A stretch of DNA of 64,000 nt, from contig NZ_CP073754.1 of the NCBI RefSeq assembly GCF_018734325.1, positions 2,666,001-2,730,000 of the forward strand. Reading direction: 5' to 3'. The notes below the pieces were generated by a model. The model searched no databases, was not told the DNA's origin, and saw only the letters and a list, made by a program, of their open reading frames with translations. A program made the translations under genes and the position numbers. Source of the DNA: Methylomonas paludis (lineage in GTDB: Bacteria > Pseudomonadota > Gammaproteobacteria > Methylococcales > Methylomonadaceae). Below, piece after piece: positions 40,639 to 52,131 of the stretch. Positions within the stretch are counted from its first letter, which is position 1; the number at the start of each line of letters is the position of its first letter.

Positions 40639-42117
40639 TTAACGGTCTGCACTTGCCAAAGCCGGATCAGGTATATCGGCCGGAATATTTTCCCAGCCAC
40701 CACCGATAGCCCGATAGAGGGCGATCCAGGCGGCAACGGACTCCTGTTCCAGTTCGGCGACGGCGGTTTCTGCGGTAATGGCGGTACGGCGATTCAGTTC
40801 GACATCCACCAGATTGCCCAAACCGGCCCGGTATAGTTCTTCACTGGCCCGTAGATTCTGGGCATAACCCTGTGCGGCTTTTTGCACTTCGGGTAAGCGG
40901 GCGGCGGCACTATTGAGCCGTAACAGGGCTTCTTCAACTTCTTTGGCGGCATTGCGCACCACGCTGCGCAAGTTAACAGCGGCGGCTTCATACTGGGCTC
41001 GGGCGGTTTCCACGTTGGCGGCACGTTTGCCGGCATCAAACAGCGGTAAACTGATGCTGGGCCCCAACGACCAGGTTTGTGCGTACATCAGCGGCGAGGG
41101 ATGCAGGCTTTGCATGGATTCGGCAATATTACCGGTCAGCGATAAACGCGGAAATCGTTGCGCCAGTTCCACACCTATTTTGGCGCTGGCTTCGGCCATA
41201 TCACGTTCCGCGCTATGGACATCCGGCCTTTGCAGCAACACCCGGGCGGGAATACTGTCGATAATGAACGGCGGTGGTTGGGGTAATTTGGCCTGGACTT
41301 CTACAGACGCGGTTAACAAGCCTTGTACTTCGGCCTCGGCTAATCCGGTCATCGCCACCAGTCCTTTCACTGCCCTATCACGTAATAATTGACGTTGAAG
41401 CAAAATATTGTTGCCGTCGGCCGCACTGGCCTGACTGAGCGCCACATCGGCGGGGGCTCGTAAACCGTACTGGCCGGCCATATCGATCAGGCGGGCAGAT
41501 TCACGCCGTGATACGGCATCTTTATCAGCCAGCTTGATCAGGATTTCGTCATAGCGATACGCCAAATAGGCATTGGCTACTTCTGCGGCGACGGCAACCC
41601 TGGCATCATGCCAGGCGGCATGACGCGATTCCAACTGGCTTTCATACATCTCCTGCTGACGCGCCAATCCACCGAACAAGTCTATTTCCCAGCTGGATTG
41701 CAAATTAAGTTGATATTGATCGCGGATAAACACCGGGCCACCAAAACTGAAAGCGGTGCGGTTGGCGCCCAAAGTGCTGTCCAGATTGGGCAAGGCTGCT
41801 GCAGTGGCGCTGGTGACATTGGCGCGGGCTTCGCTGATTCTGGCCTTGGCTTTTGCTACCGAACTGCTTTGCTGTTCAGCGGCCTTTAACAGGGTATCCA
41901 GCACCGGATCGTTAAAGCGCTGCCACCATTGCTGCAGATTTTCCGGTTCGCCCTGATGGGCAACCAAGGCCGGGGTTTGCCATTGCTCAGCCACTGGCAA
42001 TGTGGCTTGTTGATAATCTGGGCCAACGGTGGTTAGCAAACCCCTGGTCATGCCACAACCGCTGACTGCCCCACTCACCAAGATCAACCCTGCCAGTTTG
42101 GTGTTAAATTTTGTCAT
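40639..42117 (-). CDS. Outer-membrane efflux lipoprotein (NodT/OprM type)
   Basis: About 492 residues. I chose the ATG at 42117, which gives a lipoprotein signal (MTKFNTKLAGLILVSGAVSG followed by Cys21). The ORF itself is open further upstream. Two outer-membrane efflux (TolC-like) repeats follow, with typical stretches WEIDLFGGLARQQE and LGPSISLPLFDAGKRAANVE. The start lies inside the last codons of tetR (14-base overlap), so expression is coupled. It forms the exit duct of the RND system. Confidence 0.92.
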   Translation of the reverse strand: MTKFNTKLAGLILVSGAVSGCGMTRGLLTTVGPDYQQATLPVAEQWQTPALVAHQGEPENLQQWWQRFNDPVLDTLLKAAEQQSSSVAKAKARISEARANVTSATAAALPNLDSTLGANRTAFSFGGPVFIRDQYQLNLQSSWEIDLFGGLARQQEMYESQLESRHAAWHDARVAVAAEVANAYLAYRYDEILIKLADKDAVSRRESARLIDMAGQYGLRAPADVALSQASAADGNNILLQRQLLRDRAVKGLVAMTGLAEAEVQGLLTASVEVQAKLPQPPPFIIDSIPARVLLQRPDVHSAERDMAEASAKIGVELAQRFPRLSLTGNIAESMQSLHPSPLMYAQTWSLGPSISLPLFDAGKRAANVETARAQYEAAAVNLRSVVRNAAKEVEEALLRLNSAAARLPEVQKAAQGYAQNLRASEELYRAGLGNLVDVELNRRTAITAETAVAELEQESVAAWIALYRAIGGGWENIPADIPDPALASADR

Positions 42118-42775
42118 GATCCACCTGTGCTGCCCGGCGTTGGGCCTCGCCTTCAATAATAGACAATGCATAAGCCGTGAGCCGCTCTGCTGAGACATCG
42201 ATGGCTTTGGCGTTTTTAACCATATTGGGCGCAATGGCCGCTACAATATCCTGCCCCACATAAAAATGTACCGCCATACCGATAATGGCAAAAGCCAGCC
42301 GGTGCACATCGGTATCTATCCTCTGCAAGCCAAAATGCTGTTTCAGCATGGCTACCACGGCATCGTGTTGGGGTTTGATATCGGTATCAATTTGCTCCTG
42401 CCACAGCCCGGTGGGCTCCAGTATTTCCCGGTAATACAGCTTCATCACCAGTCTTAATTCTTCACTCCTTTTTAAAGGCTCAAGAAACTCCTTAAATAAC
42501 AGACTTAAGGCTTCCGGCAAGGCTAAACTGCTATAGAGATCAATATTAACGGCACATGAATGATCAGCTGTGCCTTCGAGAAATGCCGCGCGGTATAAAC
42601 CGGCTTTGTCACCAAAATAATATCGAATAGAGGAAATATTGGTTTGCGCAGTCTGGCAAATTTCCCTGGTAGAAGTGCGTTCATAGCCTTTTTCGGCAAA
42701 CAAATGCAATGCAGCCGATATCAGTCGTGACCGGGCATCCGGCTGCAGGGTTTTATTAGGGTCAGATTGAGTCAT
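42104..42775 (-). CDS. TetR-family repressor of the efflux operon
   Basis: 223 residues. The N-terminal TetR helix-turn-helix covers SRLISAALHLFAEKGYERTS and TREICQTAQTNISSIRYYFG. The C-terminal ligand domain resembles the DUF1956/CerR type. First gene of tetR-OMP-MFP-RND, so it very likely represses its own operon. Two copies of a 14-base sequence lie just upstream of its start and are the likely operator. Confidence 0.88.
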   Translation of the reverse strand: MTQSDPNKTLQPDARSRLISAALHLFAEKGYERTSTREICQTAQTNISSIRYYFGDKAGLYRAAFLEGTADHSCAVNIDLYSSLALPEALSLLFKEFLEPLKRSEELRLVMKLYYREILEPTGLWQEQIDTDIKPQHDAVVAMLKQHFGLQRIDTDVHRLAFAIIGMAVHFYVGQDIVAAIAPNMVKNAKAIDVSAERLTAYALSIIEGEAQRRAAQVDHDKI

Positions 42776-42951: not shown

Positions 42952-42978
42952 TTAGCACTCGCATCAAACGAGTGCTAA
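42952..42978 (+). promoter_or_regulatory. CIRCE element (HrcA operator) upstream of rpoH
   Basis: TTAGCACTC-N9-GAGTGCTAA is a perfect match to the CIRCE consensus, with the exact 9-base spacer GCATCAAAC. It ends 32 bases before the rpoH ATG. HrcA binds CIRCE to repress heat-shock genes, so rpoH is probably HrcA-controlled here. Confidence 0.93.
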
Positions 42979-43010
42979 AATTTAATCATCACTGAATTAT
43001 CGAGGTATCT

Positions 43011-43868
43011 ATGAACAACAATCTGGCTTTACCGATCAATTTATCGGTCGGGACATTTGATGCTTATCTAAGCCTCTTGACCCGTATGCCTAAACTGACG
43101 GCAGAGCAAGAACACGAACTGGCTATCCGTTACCGGGACAGCGGCGATCTGGAAGCTGCCCGCGAACTGGTCATGTCGAATCTGCGCTTTGTTGCTCATG
43201 TGGCACGTGGTTATGCCGGCTACGGCCTGCCTTTGGCGGACATTGTTCAGGAAGGCAATATCGGGCTGATGAAAGCCGTAAAACGCTTTGACCCGGATAT
43301 GGGCGTGCGTCTGGTTTCCTTTGCTGTACACTGGATTAAAGCTGAAATTCACGAGTATGTGATTAAAAACTGGCGTATTGTCAAAGTTGCAACGACCAAG
43401 GCGCAACGCAAACTGTTTTTTAATCTGCGCAAGCACAAAAAAGATTCAAACCAGTTATCGCAAATTGATGCTGAAGCCATTGCCACTTCTTTGGAAGTAG
43501 ACATTAAAACCGTTTACGAAATGGAACAACGCCTGGAAAGTCATGATATTGGCTTTGAGCCCTATTCTGACGACAGCAGTGAATCTGCCAGCATGGCCCC
43601 CATTGCTTATCTGGAACAACATGGTGCTGATCCGGCCCAGCTATTGGAAAACAGCGACTGGGAAGAGCGCAAGGAAGATATCTTGCTACAGGCCATGAAC
43701 GACCTGGATGAGCGCAGCCGCGACATTTTAAAAAGCCGCTGGTTAATGGCCGAAAAAGCCACCCTGCACGAACTGGCCGAGCGTTATCAGGTGTCCGCCG
43801 AGCGCATCAGACAGCTAGAACAGAATGCCATGAAGAAACTAAAAAACGCGGTGGTGCTAGAAGCCTGA
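43011..43868 (+). CDS. rpoH: RNA polymerase heat-shock sigma factor (sigma-32)
   Basis: 285 residues. Region 2 has the RpoH pattern LADIVQEGNIGLMKAVKRFD and RLVSFAVHWIKAEIHEYVI. The RpoH box is QRKLFFNLRKHKK. Region 4 ends LAERYQVSAERIRQLEQNAM. It directs transcription of chaperone and protease genes. The ATG follows GAGGT at a good distance. A CIRCE element sits in its promoter region. Confidence 0.96.
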   Translation: MNNNLALPINLSVGTFDAYLSLLTRMPKLTAEQEHELAIRYRDSGDLEAARELVMSNLRFVAHVARGYAGYGLPLADIVQEGNIGLMKAVKRFDPDMGVRLVSFAVHWIKAEIHEYVIKNWRIVKVATTKAQRKLFFNLRKHKKDSNQLSQIDAEAIATSLEVDIKTVYEMEQRLESHDIGFEPYSDDSSESASMAPIAYLEQHGADPAQLLENSDWEERKEDILLQAMNDLDERSRDILKSRWLMAEKATLHELAERYQVSAERIRQLEQNAMKKLKNAVVLEA

Positions 43869-44069: not shown

Positions 44070-44177
44070 GTTGTCCAGCGAAGTACAAAGAAATGCAGTG
44101 ACATACCGATAAATTAGTGACACGTTTAGTGATACGCGCTAAAGTTGCCAAAAACGTATCACATGAGGTGTCACAAA

Positions 44178-45431
44178 ATGGCGATAAATCTCAATAAAGA
44201 CGTGGTCTACAGAGCTGCTAAACCTAAAGAAAAAGACTACACCATCAATGATGGCGGTGGATTGGCATTATTGATAAAGGCCAGCGGTTCCAAGCTATGG
44301 CGTTTTATCTATCGGTTTGATGGCAAACAAAACCGGCTAGGCTTAGGCGCATATCCTGATTTATCCCTGGAAGCGGCTCGAAACAAAGCCAAAGAACCAC
44401 GCGAGAACTTAGCAAACGGCATAGACCCTGGCGACCAGCGAAAACAGACTAAAGAAGCTAAGCGCCTTGCAGCAGATAAGACCAAACGCCTTGAAGCCGG
44501 CTTGCCTATAATCAACAGCTTTGAACATATTTGCAATGAATGGCTAGAATCAATTGCTCATGGCGTTAGAGCAATCACCCAGCAAAAGAAAATCAGACGA
44601 TTTGAGCTGTATGTATTCCCGTTTATTGGCAGCAAGCCTATCAGTGAAATCAAATCCCCGGATATTCACGCCCTTATCAAGCCGCTGATAAGCAAAAACC
44701 AACTGGAGACAGCGCATAGGGTAAACAGCGAAATCAGCGCAGCCTATGCCTACGCTATCGCCCACGGTCACACCGATTACGACCCGGCGCAAGCTGTCGC
44801 CAAACAAATACCGGCGCAAAAGGTTAAACACAATGCAGCAGTCACCGAACCGAAAGAAGTAGCGCAACTGCTTCGCGATATAGGCCATTATCAAGGCACC
44901 TTTGTTGTGCAATGCGCGTTAAGGTTATCGCCTTACCTGTTTCAACGCCCTGGTGAAATCCGGCAAATGGAATGGCAAGATATAGATTTAGACGCTAAAG
45001 AATGGCGCTACTTTGTCACTAAAACCGAAGTACAGCACATAGTACCGCTATCTTCTCAGGCTATTGCCATTTTGGAAGCCATCAAGCCATTAACAGGCAC
45101 CGGGCGCTATGTTTTTCCATCAAGTCGGGGTGATGGCCGCCCCATGTCAGACGGCACCATCAGAACCGCGCTTAAAACACTTGGTTATGAATCAGACGTA
45201 ATGAGCGCACACGGCTTTAGAACCACTGCATCAACGCTCTTAAACGAACAAGGCTGGAGTCCTGACGCGATAGAGCGGCAACTGTGCCACATGCCAAGGG
45301 ATGCAGTCAGAGCGGCTTATAATCGCGCTCAGTATCTGGAAGAGCGGCGGCGGATGATGCAGAGCTGGGCAGATTATTTGGACGGATTAAAAGCAGGGGC
45401 GCAAGTAATACCGTTTAGAAAAACAATATAA
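44178..45431 (+). CDS. P4-type tyrosine integrase
   Basis: 417 residues. An N-terminal DUF4102 arm-binding domain (GGGLALLIKASGSKLWRF, LGLGAYPDLSLEAARNKA), a SAM-like core-binding domain, and a catalytic domain with Arg in RPGEIRQMEW, HGFRTTAS, LCHMPRDAVR and the Tyr nucleophile in AAYNRAQY. The ATG at 44178 has GAGGT upstream; a TTG at 44145 is in frame but less likely. It inserts or excises the island at the adjacent tRNA-Leu gene. It appears intact. Confidence 0.93.
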   Translation: MAINLNKDVVYRAAKPKEKDYTINDGGGLALLIKASGSKLWRFIYRFDGKQNRLGLGAYPDLSLEAARNKAKEPRENLANGIDPGDQRKQTKEAKRLAADKTKRLEAGLPIINSFEHICNEWLESIAHGVRAITQQKKIRRFELYVFPFIGSKPISEIKSPDIHALIKPLISKNQLETAHRVNSEISAAYAYAIAHGHTDYDPAQAVAKQIPAQKVKHNAAVTEPKEVAQLLRDIGHYQGTFVVQCALRLSPYLFQRPGEIRQMEWQDIDLDAKEWRYFVTKTEVQHIVPLSSQAIAILEAIKPLTGTGRYVFPSSRGDGRPMSDGTIRTALKTLGYESDVMSAHGFRTTASTLLNEQGWSPDAIERQLCHMPRDAVRAAYNRAQYLEERRRMMQSWADYLDGLKAGAQVIPFRKTI

Positions 45432-45557: not shown

Positions 45558-47250
45558 CCTGAATCCGTGTTCCTTTCGGTTTAAGTGAGGGCAGTCGCGT
45601 TTCAGACGCGTTTTTTAAAAAAATCTACCATCAATCGAAATTTAACTGCCGTTCATCAAGCCCTCAGTCGCAAAAATCAATCGTTTCCATGGTATTGCCG
45701 GCATCGCCAGATGAAAAACCTGACGCCAAGACAAGCAATCTTCTTCTCTACCCGGAGAATCAGCTCGTAACCAGCATCTCAGCTTTCGCGCCGCTTATCC
45801 TGATGCAAAGCCAGGCTGCACCACCAATCGCTCTTGTAAATAAGCGAATACTTTTGCCACGGGTGAGGCGCACCCTAAGTCCAGCCACCATTGCCGGGCT
45901 TTGTGGATCACCTGGGCTGCTCGATACATGACTTCTTGCAGCACCGTTCGTAACCGCCGTCGTTTTGCCGGATGACGTATTGGCGCCAAGTCGCCAGTCA
46001 AGCCCAGTTGACCAATCAGTCGCAAGCAATTATAGGCAAACATACCCATTCTCAATAGACAGTCGTTGGTCTCAAACTTTCCAGATGGTAAGCGTTCCAT
46101 ATCCAGGTCAGTTTTGAATTCCGAATGAAATTGTTCATGGGTGCCGTGGTCGCGGTAGCGTTCAATGACGGTTTCTTCGGGTTCCTCCAGACTCGTCCAC
46201 CAGCCTTCCAGTTGAATGTCCGGCAGTAATAGCATCTGGCCGTGCTTATTGCTCGTGCGTTCAATGATCCGCACGACCAGTCTGAAGGGGCGAGTCTGTT
46301 TTTTCCAAGCACGTTCCACCGTCAGTGTCATTAACGCTTCCCGTTTACCGGGGCGTTTTTCAACAAAGGCGCCGGCCGCTTCCGCTTTTTCTAACCAGGA
46401 TGTCTTATCTTGCCGTCTTGGATTCCACTTGATCAAGTATTCAAAGCGCCTGTTCATGGCTGCCCAGCGTTCTTTCTCAGCCGCAACCGTAAATAACAGT
46501 TTGGCGCTATCAAACCCTGAGTCTTTGCGTAATAACAACGGCAAACCCGGTGCAACCAAGCGCTCAACTCGAGGAAACAGCCTTTCTAGAAAATAATCAA
46601 TCTCCAGCGATGAATGCCAGCGGCCTGGACGCAGTTCCAATCCTATACACCAGCCTTCATTGCCCAAATAAGCCGCGACAGGCGTATAGCCATCCACTCC
46701 CTGATAGGTTCGACTCACCTCTTCCTTCTTGGTACCGCTCTGATCCATGACGAAGGTGTCCATGTCCAGACAGACGTAGCCTTTATGCGGCGTAATTGGG
46801 GCTTCTGTTCGTTCGATGAGTCGTATCGATAGATCATCCACCGGCTCCAGCAGGCTGCCGCTGACACGATCAAGACGTTGCCGCAGCCACACGCTGCCGG
46901 GAACCTTACGTACATCCAATGCCTTCTTGAAAAAACGATCTTCACGAAACGGCTCAACAGCCTCGAAGTCGCTTTTGCCTATACTTAAAAGGCCAACAGT
47001 GGTTTTGACTAAATCCGAGGTTTTGATACCCTGTGAAACAGGTATTCTACCGTCCACCATCACTTCGACATTGACCGCTTCCAGGCACTGGCCGATCAAG
47101 GATAGTCCGGCATAGGAGGTAAGTTCCTTTTTGGATTCTTTAAGCTTAAAACGTGCCATAATCAAAACGGGTGACTATAGAAAAACTATATTATACCTTT
47201 TTTATCATTGACTTATGACTATTTATAAAAAAAACGAACACGGATTCAGG
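45558..47250 (-). mobile_element. IS1380-family insertion sequence, copy 2
   Basis: 1693 bp, the same ends CCTGAATCCGTGTTC as copy 1, and practically identical sequence (one base difference seen, at 45631). The flanks are AATGA on the left and TAGCT on the right, so there is no target duplication. Both neighbouring genes are truncated exactly at the element, which fits an IS-mediated deletion. Confidence 0.92.
45795..47159 (-). CDS. IS1380-family transposase, copy 2
   Basis: Identical in protein sequence to the copy at 11984-13348. Full length and without frameshift, ATG start at 47159. Being intact and duplicated, this element is probably mobile in this genome. Confidence 0.92.
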   Translation of the reverse strand: MARFKLKESKKELTSYAGLSLIGQCLEAVNVEVMVDGRIPVSQGIKTSDLVKTTVGLLSIGKSDFEAVEPFREDRFFKKALDVRKVPGSVWLRQRLDRVSGSLLEPVDDLSIRLIERTEAPITPHKGYVCLDMDTFVMDQSGTKKEEVSRTYQGVDGYTPVAAYLGNEGWCIGLELRPGRWHSSLEIDYFLERLFPRVERLVAPGLPLLLRKDSGFDSAKLLFTVAAEKERWAAMNRRFEYLIKWNPRRQDKTSWLEKAEAAGAFVEKRPGKREALMTLTVERAWKKQTRPFRLVVRIIERTSNKHGQMLLLPDIQLEGWWTSLEEPEETVIERYRDHGTHEQFHSEFKTDLDMERLPSGKFETNDCLLRMGMFAYNCLRLIGQLGLTGDLAPIRHPAKRRRLRTVLQEVMYRAAQVIHKARQWWLDLGCASPVAKVFAYLQERLVVQPGFASG

Positions 47251-48809
47251 TAGCTCTCATAAGTTTTTCTGTGAATGCACATATCCAACATCTTAAACAT
47301 AAAAAATTTTAAATCTGAAATACCAGAATTTAGGATTATGCTTTCTATATCTTGGATTGTTGCGGATTTGAATGCCAGCTCCTGTCGCGCCCCCCATGCA
47401 CTGTTCTTCGCCACGTAGAAGCAAGCGTCTAAGATCGTGGTTTTCACTTGAGCCTTGTTATTGATATTATTAAACTCTGATTCAATGAGATGATGAATTT
47501 TGCGATTAAAAAAATTGTTAAGCTCAGCTTCCTCTAGATTTCTTGCTCTAAATGCCTCAATCCAACCTGCCACAGCAGCATCTGCAATTTGCTGTCCACC
47601 CGGAATTTCGGTGATGTTTTCGTGTAAACTTGAGACCATATAAGGGTCTAACAGATGAGCCTTAGCTACTACTAGTGCTGCTTCTTCAAGCAACTGGGCT
47701 TCATTCATTCGATAGTCCCACGCCAAACGCTCAAGAAACTTATTGCAAGCATTACGAGCTTCCAATGCATCTTCTTCAGCAATATAACGATCAACGATCG
47801 CTGTAACCATAGAGACATCGAATAAGCCTGATTCTAAGTATTCGATGACTACAAGTTCAAAGTCATCGCAACCACGAATTCCTAGCTCTGTCGTAAGCAA
47901 TTTCCATTTGGATTTACGCTTGCTCTCCTCTGTTTCTTCAACTTTCTTATCGTGAAGAACACTCCAATCCCTATCAGAACCTTGCGAAAGGACAAAATCA
48001 AAGTCTGGCCCATCATCAATACCTTTATAGTGAATTGCGGCAAGTAATACTGTTGAAGGGATAACGCGATAGAGCACTGCTTCGCTTAGGTCTTCACGAT
48101 TCCCAAGGATGCGATTGATCGCTTTTATAATTTTCTGGATAACGCGAATGTTGGTCAACTTGCAAAGTTCCACAGAACACTGAATTGTCGCCTCGTATTT
48201 CGATGGACTCAGACCCACGGCAATTTTAAAGGCCTCTTCGGTCGATGTATTCAGTCGCAATTCTTCGTCAATAACTTTCTCACGGAATGTATCCCAAATC
48301 TTGCGCTGGTCAAGCTTGTCGCTATTTAGGATAAGAACAAAACGCGAATCATGTTGCTGTGTAAATTCATCAATAAATCCAAGAACTTCATCAATGTTAA
48401 GTCTTTCGTGTTTACGCTCAAGGTCATCAAGGACAATTATTTTATTATTGAGCATTGCTGGTGCGAAAATTAGACCTATGTCATTCAATGCCCCCAAGCT
48501 CTTATGAACTCCCTCAAGAGCCTTTACACCAGTTTTGTATACTTCAGTTGCACTTTTCCATAGATGAGGATTAGCCTTCATTGAAGGAACCGCACTTTGA
48601 AGAAGCTTGATTTTTATTTGCTCGATGGTAGACAGTCCAAACAGTGAAGCATAGAGTGCGTTCTGAACATCCACATCGGCAGATGATTTCTTTACTTCGT
48701 CCCACATGTGGCTTTTGCCAGTACCCCACTTGCCCGAAAGAGCAATAACTTTATTATCTTTATCAGCCAACAGTTGAATAAGCTGTTCTTTTGTAGATTT
48801 CAACGACAT
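47251..48809 (-). pseudogene. KAP-like P-loop NTPase, C-terminus lost to the IS
   Basis: About 519 native residues remain; the frame then reads nine codons into the IS. Walker A is GKWGTGKSHMW (about residue 26), Walker B is IIVLDDLER (about 124), typical of KAP/STAND-like P-loop ATPases. A long helical tail follows. Such proteins are often parts of defence or membrane-linked accessory systems. Its AT-rich composition differs from the core genes. The natural C-terminus is missing, so activity is doubtful. No partner gene is evident. Confidence 0.7.
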
Positions 48810-51513: not shown

Positions 51514-52131
51514 TTATTCAAAATCGAACAAACTGACAGTGCCTTGCGCCGTGTCTTTCTCGGTTGATTGTATTTTGGATTGAGGCTGACGAGGTTTGAA
51601 AATTTCGTGTTGGGCAACATCGCCCAAAGCATGACGCAAAGCCAGTCGCCAACCTTTGTTGCCATCATTGATGCCACCCGTGGTAATCGCCGTCATACCG
51701 AATAACCACCAGCGCTCTTCCGGGCGTAAGGCCAGCCAATTACGAACGGCGATGGGGATATGATCGAATTCCATGCCTTCCACTGCCCATGCCAATACGC
51801 ATAACTCTTTACCTAATAAGCGGTCGACTGGATTTGGGCCGACTTTCCAGGTTGAGGTTTTTAGATTGCGCTCTTTCAGGCGCGCATTAAACGCACGTTG
51901 CACCTCGCCACGGATGGCAGTCCAGCGCGTGCGCTCCAATACGACACGCACAATCAAACTCTGTGAATGATCATGAGTTTGCATGCCCAAATTTTCGACA
52001 ATGCTGACACCGCCGGTATTGGTGCGCGGAATCTCAACAATAAAATGATGAGGATCGCTGGTTGCAGGTACACCAAAACCTAACGTTGGATGGACAATCG
52101 TTTGCGCAGTTTCTTTTTTACGTGTGGCCAT
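51514..52131 (-). CDS. DUF3780 protein, orphan of a defence-type cluster
   Basis: 205 residues. I recognise DUF3780 from HHFIVEIPRTNTGGVSIVEN, LLGKELCVLAWAVEG and LRPEERWWLFGMTAITTGG. Family members normally sit with DUF499 and DUF1156 proteins in large anti-phage clusters. None of these partners is present here; the neighbours are a TA pair and an integrase fragment. It is probably a leftover of a deleted system. Molecular function unknown. The frame is intact. Confidence 0.72.
   Translation of the reverse strand: MATRKKETAQTIVHPTLGFGVPATSDPHHFIVEIPRTNTGGVSIVENLGMQTHDHSQSLIVRVVLERTRWTAIRGEVQRAFNARLKERNLKTSTWKVGPNPVDRLLGKELCVLAWAVEGMEFDHIPIAVRNWLALRPEERWWLFGMTAITTGGINDGNKGWRLALRHALGDVAQHEIFKPRQPQSKIQSTEKDTAQGTVSLFDFE

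Follow-up and report, generated by a model that had tools for sequence, protein, structure and literature searches.

Heat-shock control is commonly described in terms of two systems, i.e., that of HrcA with its operator CIRCE and that of the sigma factor RpoH. At the locus described here, from Methylomonas paludis, a CIRCE is situated in front of rpoH, which raises the question of whether HrcA stands above the heat-shock sigma factor itself, as an initial annotation of this DNA had proposed. The window, i.e., the whole stretch of DNA that was analysed, comprises 64,000 nucleotides, and its relevant features are given in Table 1.

The repeat, its gene, and their genomic surroundings

The repeat (TTAGCACTCGCATCAAACGAGTGCTAA) consists of the left arm TTAGCACTC, the spacer GCATCAAAC, and the right arm GAGTGCTAA, without any mismatch to the pattern TTAGCACTC-N9-GAGTGCTAA. 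It is the sole match with at most three mismatches within the 64-kb window, for which such matches are expected by chance at a mean of 0.02 (2 of 100 dinucleotide shuffles contained any). The start codon of rpoH follows after 32 bases, and the gene is supported by TIGR02392, such that the perfect CIRCE 32 bases upstream of rpoH reported in the initial annotation is confirmed. The location is that of a heat-shock promoter by motif only, i.e., by the overlap with TGCTAAAAT and the distance of 32 bases to rpoH.

Table 1. Features around rpoH in the window, and CIRCEs of the complete genome (positions count from the first letter of the window)
Feature	Position	Strand	Remarks
Perfect CIRCE (HrcA operator) at rpoH	42952-42978	+	0 mismatches; arms 42952-42960 and 42970-42978, spacer 42961-42969
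Weak -35-like hexamer TTAGCA	42952-42957	+	in left CIRCE arm; 18-base spacing; consensus match only
Extended -10 motif TGCTAAAAT	42973-42981	+	TGCTAA in common with right CIRCE arm
GAGG, likely ribosome-binding site	43002-43005	+	5 bases before ATG; putative, from the sequence
rpoH, heat-shock sigma factor	43011-43868	+	285 aa; TIGR02392, PF04542, PF04545
TetR/CecR-like regulator gene	42104-42775	-	divergent from rpoH, outside the circuit; position of ftsX in many relatives
CIRCE of groESL (before groES)			0 mismatches
CIRCE of hrcA-grpE			2 mismatches

The rpoH product scores 389 bits against TIGR02392 (cut-off 323.1) and contains the sigma-70 regions 2 and 4. Four TIGR02392 matches exist in the genome, among which only this one exceeds the cut-off; a second rpoH elsewhere under ordinary control is therefore ruled out. 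The closest named RpoH, with 81% identity, belongs to a metagenome-assembled genome (MAG) of Methylomonas, followed by other Methylococcales, and the host bacterium is probably a methane oxidiser.

Across the whole genome of 3.67 Mb, three CIRCEs with at most three mismatches were found, and none with the reversed pattern used as control. Concerning the repressor, the initial annotation had named absence of hrcA as an observation that would speak against its proposal; a single hrcA is present, and its product exhibits both domains, the C-terminal one (PF01628) with 218.6 bits and the DNA-binding one (PF03444) with 23.7 bits, slightly above the cut-off of 21. The putative start of a DnaK-like protein, read from the sequence, is situated 3' of grpE.

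In 46 of the 80 named loci, ftsX is found in the flank of rpoH, and the two loci examined in full have the order ftsE-ftsX-rpoH. In the M. paludis genome, ftsX lies around 347 kb away from rpoH. In none of the six drawn genomes of the same genus is ftsX found at a distance of up to 1500 bases from rpoH; the CIRCE is nevertheless kept in all six, which rules out that it is part of an ftsX neighbourhood. The operator has travelled together with rpoH. Directly 3' of rpoH, a tRNA-Leu (CAA) gene opens the stretch 43918-64000, followed by a tyrosine integrase (44145-45431) and two DDE transposases. This stretch, which also contains a KAP-type NTPase (47223-48809) resembling PDC-S49 of PADLOC and a PADLOC-listed DUF3780 protein (51514-52131), has the appearance of a genomic island that targets a tRNA gene and carries candidate genes for defence.

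Distribution of the site in genomes with and without hrcA

Within the family, 101 genomes were drawn and 97 rpoH upstream regions were scored at first, G019 being added later; unscored are G004 (no rpoH match) as well as G057 and G076 (gene partial or at a contig edge). Among the genomes with hrcA, a CIRCE with at most three mismatches was found in 80 of 81, or 80 of 82 when G019 is counted; 46 of these sites are perfect, 31 have one mismatch, two have two, and one has three. The exception among the 81 (G025) possesses perfect arms and a spacer of 8 bases. In G019 (locus L276, G019:C18:1-282), hrcA is present and no CIRCE occurs in the 251 bases upstream of rpoH; G045, a member of the same genus, has a perfect CIRCE at rpoH. 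In G006 (G006:C67:2572-3162), the rpoH match begins at residue 89 and has a stop codon, yet a perfect CIRCE lies upstream; either an assembly error or a broken gene is to be assumed.

Without hrcA, 9 of 16 family genomes have a CIRCE at the limit of three mismatches (two perfect, two with one mismatch, four with two, one with three). At a limit of one mismatch, the site is present in 77 of 81 genomes with hrcA versus 4 of 16 without. Of the six scored genera that contain both kinds of genomes, the hrcA-less members show more mismatches in four, equal numbers in two, and fewer in none; in the mixed genera g9 and g20, this increase concerns some of the hrcA-less genomes, not all. All five drawn members of genus g13 are hrcA-less and have 7-8 mismatches, i.e., no recognisable CIRCE at rpoH. 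Nine of the 101 family genomes contain no CIRCE with at most two mismatches anywhere, and eight of these nine are without hrcA.

For the 80 family sites in hrcA-bearing genomes, pairwise identity amounts to 95.8% in the arms, 35.5% in the spacer, and 29-38% in the flanks, and the class rpoH sites exhibit 93.4% in the arms and 33.5% in the spacer. Such conserved arms next to a variable spacer and variable flanks form the pattern of a protein-binding site.

From the class, 184 genomes were drawn, 133 of them with hrcA and 171 with an rpoH match. A CIRCE is situated at rpoH in 80 of 84 scored genomes with hrcA (75 of 79 families) versus 5 of 35 without, the 119 scored upstream regions being mostly those of the top-scoring rpoH matches among the 171 and thus leaning to RpoH proteins that resemble that of the window, and 31 of the 51 hrcA-less class genomes being counted as such by absence from the list of hrcA matches. 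The four remaining hrcA-bearing genomes have no CIRCE at the three-mismatch limit. Mononucleotide shuffles of the class upstream regions yielded no site with at most three mismatches (0 of 595).

In a set of 80 named loci, which partly overlaps with the family set, 43 have a CIRCE at rpoH, among them loci of Thiogranum, Thiohalobacter, Haliea, and Pseudoalteromonas. For 50 of these loci, picked to spread over the genera, the genomes were checked for hrcA; the site is present in all 24 with hrcA versus 4 of 26 without. The loci of Acinetobacter, Psychrobacter, and Halomonas have no CIRCE, and hrcA was found in none of the ten checked genomes of these genera. Fisher tests of CIRCE against hrcA gave p values from 6.5e-6 to 9e-19 with kinship ignored. 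Conservation in relatives, which the initial annotation had suggested as a check, proved strong among hrcA-bearing genomes, with 80 of 82 in the family and 80 of 84 in the class.

Some of the named loci deserve separate mention. Three from Pseudoalteromonas (L179, L184, L195) combine a perfect CIRCE with a very weak HrcA match (E about 2e-8 to 3e-9); judged by these scores, their HrcA seems to be strongly diverged while keeping its site. Four loci of Pseudoxanthomonas and Luteimonas (L174, L176, L185, L192) possess a variant site at rpoH with the left arm TTAGCAGTC (ATAGCAGTC in L176) and the right arm GACTGCTAA (L174, L176), CATTGCTAA (L185), or CACTGCTAA (L192), and this group may have undergone a shift in the specificity of HrcA. 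L183, a Klebsiella pneumoniae MAG by its title, has a perfect CIRCE upstream of an RpoH that is 59% identical to that of the window, and is probably a mislabelled bin.

Concerning the hrcA-less genomes that keep a site, two are perfect (G058, G100) and two have one mismatch (G048, G064) in the family. In the class, one mismatch is found in G181, G211, and G114, and three in G165 and G281; among the named loci, L131 is perfect, L117 and L150 have one mismatch, and L119 has two. A second hrcA model, applied to 16 hrcA-less genomes, detected traces in two of them: G181 has the beginning of an hrcA where a contig ends, and G100 a short fragment that matches weakly. The assembly of G064 is 75% complete. 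Good CIRCEs in genomes without hrcA count against a control of rpoH by HrcA.

Promoter motifs overlapping the operator

The right arm continues directly into AAT, which creates the extended motif TGCTAAAAT with its -10 box at 42976-42981. A promoter scan returned two promoter-like sites, compared with 0.8 expected. Of the rpoH sites in hrcA-bearing genomes, 76 of 80 in the family and 70 of 80 in the class match the pattern TGnTAnnnT. The third base after the CIRCE, which is the last base of the -10 box and lies outside the CIRCE, is a T in 95% of the family and 88% of the class rpoH sites.

The sites before groES served for comparison, with 24 of 30 loci (including M. paludis groES) included, namely those having a site with at most three mismatches. 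A T at the third base after the CIRCE is found in 6 of these 24 versus 70 of 80 class rpoH sites (p = 1.3e-8). In 18 of the 24, the best -35-like match begins 28 bases 5' of the CIRCE, which places the operator there after the promoter. At rpoH, in contrast to groESL, 30 bases appear to be common to promoter and operator. As to a sigma-32 promoter, the match before rpoH in the window is weak (8 of 13 positions); the groES sites reach scores of at least 7 of 13 in 24 of 24 cases and are not distinguishable from sigma-70 promoters by this test, in which the TTGA core was absent from 85% of the shuffles.

In hrcA-less genomes of the family, TGnTAnnnT is intact in all seven partly decayed sites (two to six mismatches), a number that includes close kin and excludes the five g13 genomes. 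As the -10 motif remains intact while the repeat decays, operator and promoter functions are separable, the former decaying without HrcA and the latter staying. In two hrcA-less genomes (G020, G046), GAGTGATATTAT or GAATGATATTAT is found in place of the right arm and the operator is gone; a TGnTATTAT box is kept there, with 5 of 6 positions of the -10 consensus.

Regulatory interpretation and comparison with known systems

With a probability of roughly 0.85, the CIRCE serves HrcA as operator and overlies a sigma-70-type promoter of rpoH, where HrcA would block RNA polymerase until heat or titration of the chaperonin removes it. From the sequence, we infer binding of HrcA, repression of rpoH, use of the promoter, and a response to heat; the HrcA sensor probably controls RpoH rather than working in parallel with it. 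As long as the temperature is normal, HrcA, maintained in its active state by GroE, would sit on the inverted repeat, cover the region from -35 to -10, and exclude RNA polymerase. Upon heat shock, HrcA would be inactivated directly, or indirectly when unfolded proteins draw off GroE, and its loss would permit transcription of rpoH and switch on the RpoH regulon. The same event would release groESL and hrcA-grpE(-dnaK). HrcA would thus be placed above RpoH, and a feed-forward loop would result if RpoH also reads groESL. In Campylobacter jejuni, HrcA has been shown to be assisted by GroE and to lose its DNA binding on heating (PMC8533110); an analogous mechanism here would release rpoH, groESL, and hrcA-grpE together upon heating or titration of GroE.

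Points against this interpretation are the weakness of the -35-like hexamer, the absence of a site from the hrcA-bearing G019 and from four hrcA-bearing class genomes, and the good sites in some hrcA-less genomes. For Agrobacterium, a paper describes the roles of RpoH and HrcA as independent in its title, which likewise speaks against placing HrcA over RpoH. In Rhizobium leguminosarum, one CIRCE-bearing groESL operon is unaffected by an hrcA knockout according to PMC3989490, and a CIRCE alone is, on this example, not proof of control.

A less likely, though not negligible, explanation is that HrcA binds but exerts minor transcriptional control, RpoH being set mainly post-transcriptionally and HrcA trimming its basal level. 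This would agree with E. coli, where RpoH is controlled mostly after transcription (by an mRNA thermosensor, DnaK, and FtsH) and of which the genome, one of 14 control genomes, is without hrcA; some hrcA-less genomes, moreover, do without a CIRCE at rpoH. Under nitrogen starvation of Xylella fastidiosa, rpoH rises two-fold although hrcA also rises four-fold (PMC3224663). If rpoH of this species has a CIRCE, this joint rise is not as simple repression predicts. A trivial effect is disfavoured, however, by the strong preservation of both arms over the class (93.4%, compared with 33.5% in the spacer).

The inverted repeat might instead act in RNA, as a stem-loop in the 5' leader that affects stability or translation of the rpoH mRNA, for which there is a parallel in Bacillus groE, where the CIRCE is part of the transcribed leader and a function at the RNA level has been considered. 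We consider this very improbable at rpoH: the repeat terminates in the conserved -10 motif, such that a transcript from this motif would start downstream of the CIRCE, and in many genomes without hrcA the repeat has decayed, the -10 motif persisting in each of the seven partly decayed sites. A stem would, furthermore, keep pairing with altered letters, whereas it is the letters themselves that are conserved. That the repeat is a relic or a chance product, functionless in this strain, is hardly credible at all given 0.02 expected matches per window, the perfect arms, the presence of hrcA, and the 80 of 82 hrcA-bearing family genomes with the site. A chance origin in particular is ruled out by the shuffles, the reversed-pattern control, and the conservation over the class.

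The operator thus interpreted as a point of HrcA control resembles the classical CIRCE of groESL in its 9-N9-9 sequence, the repressor family, and a heat-shock target; unlike that CIRCE, which comes after the promoter, its right arm is part of the -10 motif. With E. coli, the locus shares the same sigma factor and, in many relatives, the ftsX-rpoH neighbourhood. The rpoH gene of E. coli has several promoters and is under post-transcriptional control, and, unlike M. paludis, the E. coli control genome has no hrcA.

A CIRCE at rpoH was already predicted for Geobacter sulfurreducens (Rodionov et al. 2004, PMC545781, Table 8). As here, the site is perfect (at -51 to the start codon), and others are found at groESL and hrcA-grpE-dnaK-dnaJ; the species belongs to another class, and its site is the only rpoH case in Table 8. 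The prediction, as given in the consulted part of that paper, comes without promoter geometry, a class-wide survey, or co-loss with hrcA. Among the portions of the literature covered by our search, a CIRCE at rpoH is named only in PMC545781; the survey of gamma-proteobacterial CIRCE regulons by Permina and Gelfand (2003), which is cited there, may have reported gammaproteobacterial sites already.

The initial annotation regarded rpoH as an unusual place for a CIRCE, which does not hold in view of the tabulated Geobacter prediction and of the scored HrcA-bearing Gammaproteobacteria, where this place is the usual one. Its proposal of HrcA over rpoH in one hierarchy gains support from the presence of hrcA, the conserved site, and the frequent decay of the site without hrcA, the arrangement itself being not exceptional. 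Measured against the part of the literature consulted, the HrcA-rpoH wiring is not new in kind, and the points to follow are its breadth, the embedded promoter, and the co-loss with hrcA.

Whether the operator fused to the -10 box, with HrcA over rpoH, constitutes the ancestral gammaproteobacterial design is evenly balanced in our judgement; the mode of E. coli would then be derived, after repeated loss of hrcA, with the operator decayed and the promoter left in place. Should a position of HrcA above rpoH be common among Gammaproteobacteria, their heat-shock control would be a single cascade leading from inactivation of a repressor to a sigma factor, with E. coli as the exception, and the repeated absence of hrcA would offer natural replicates of how a regulatory link gets replaced.
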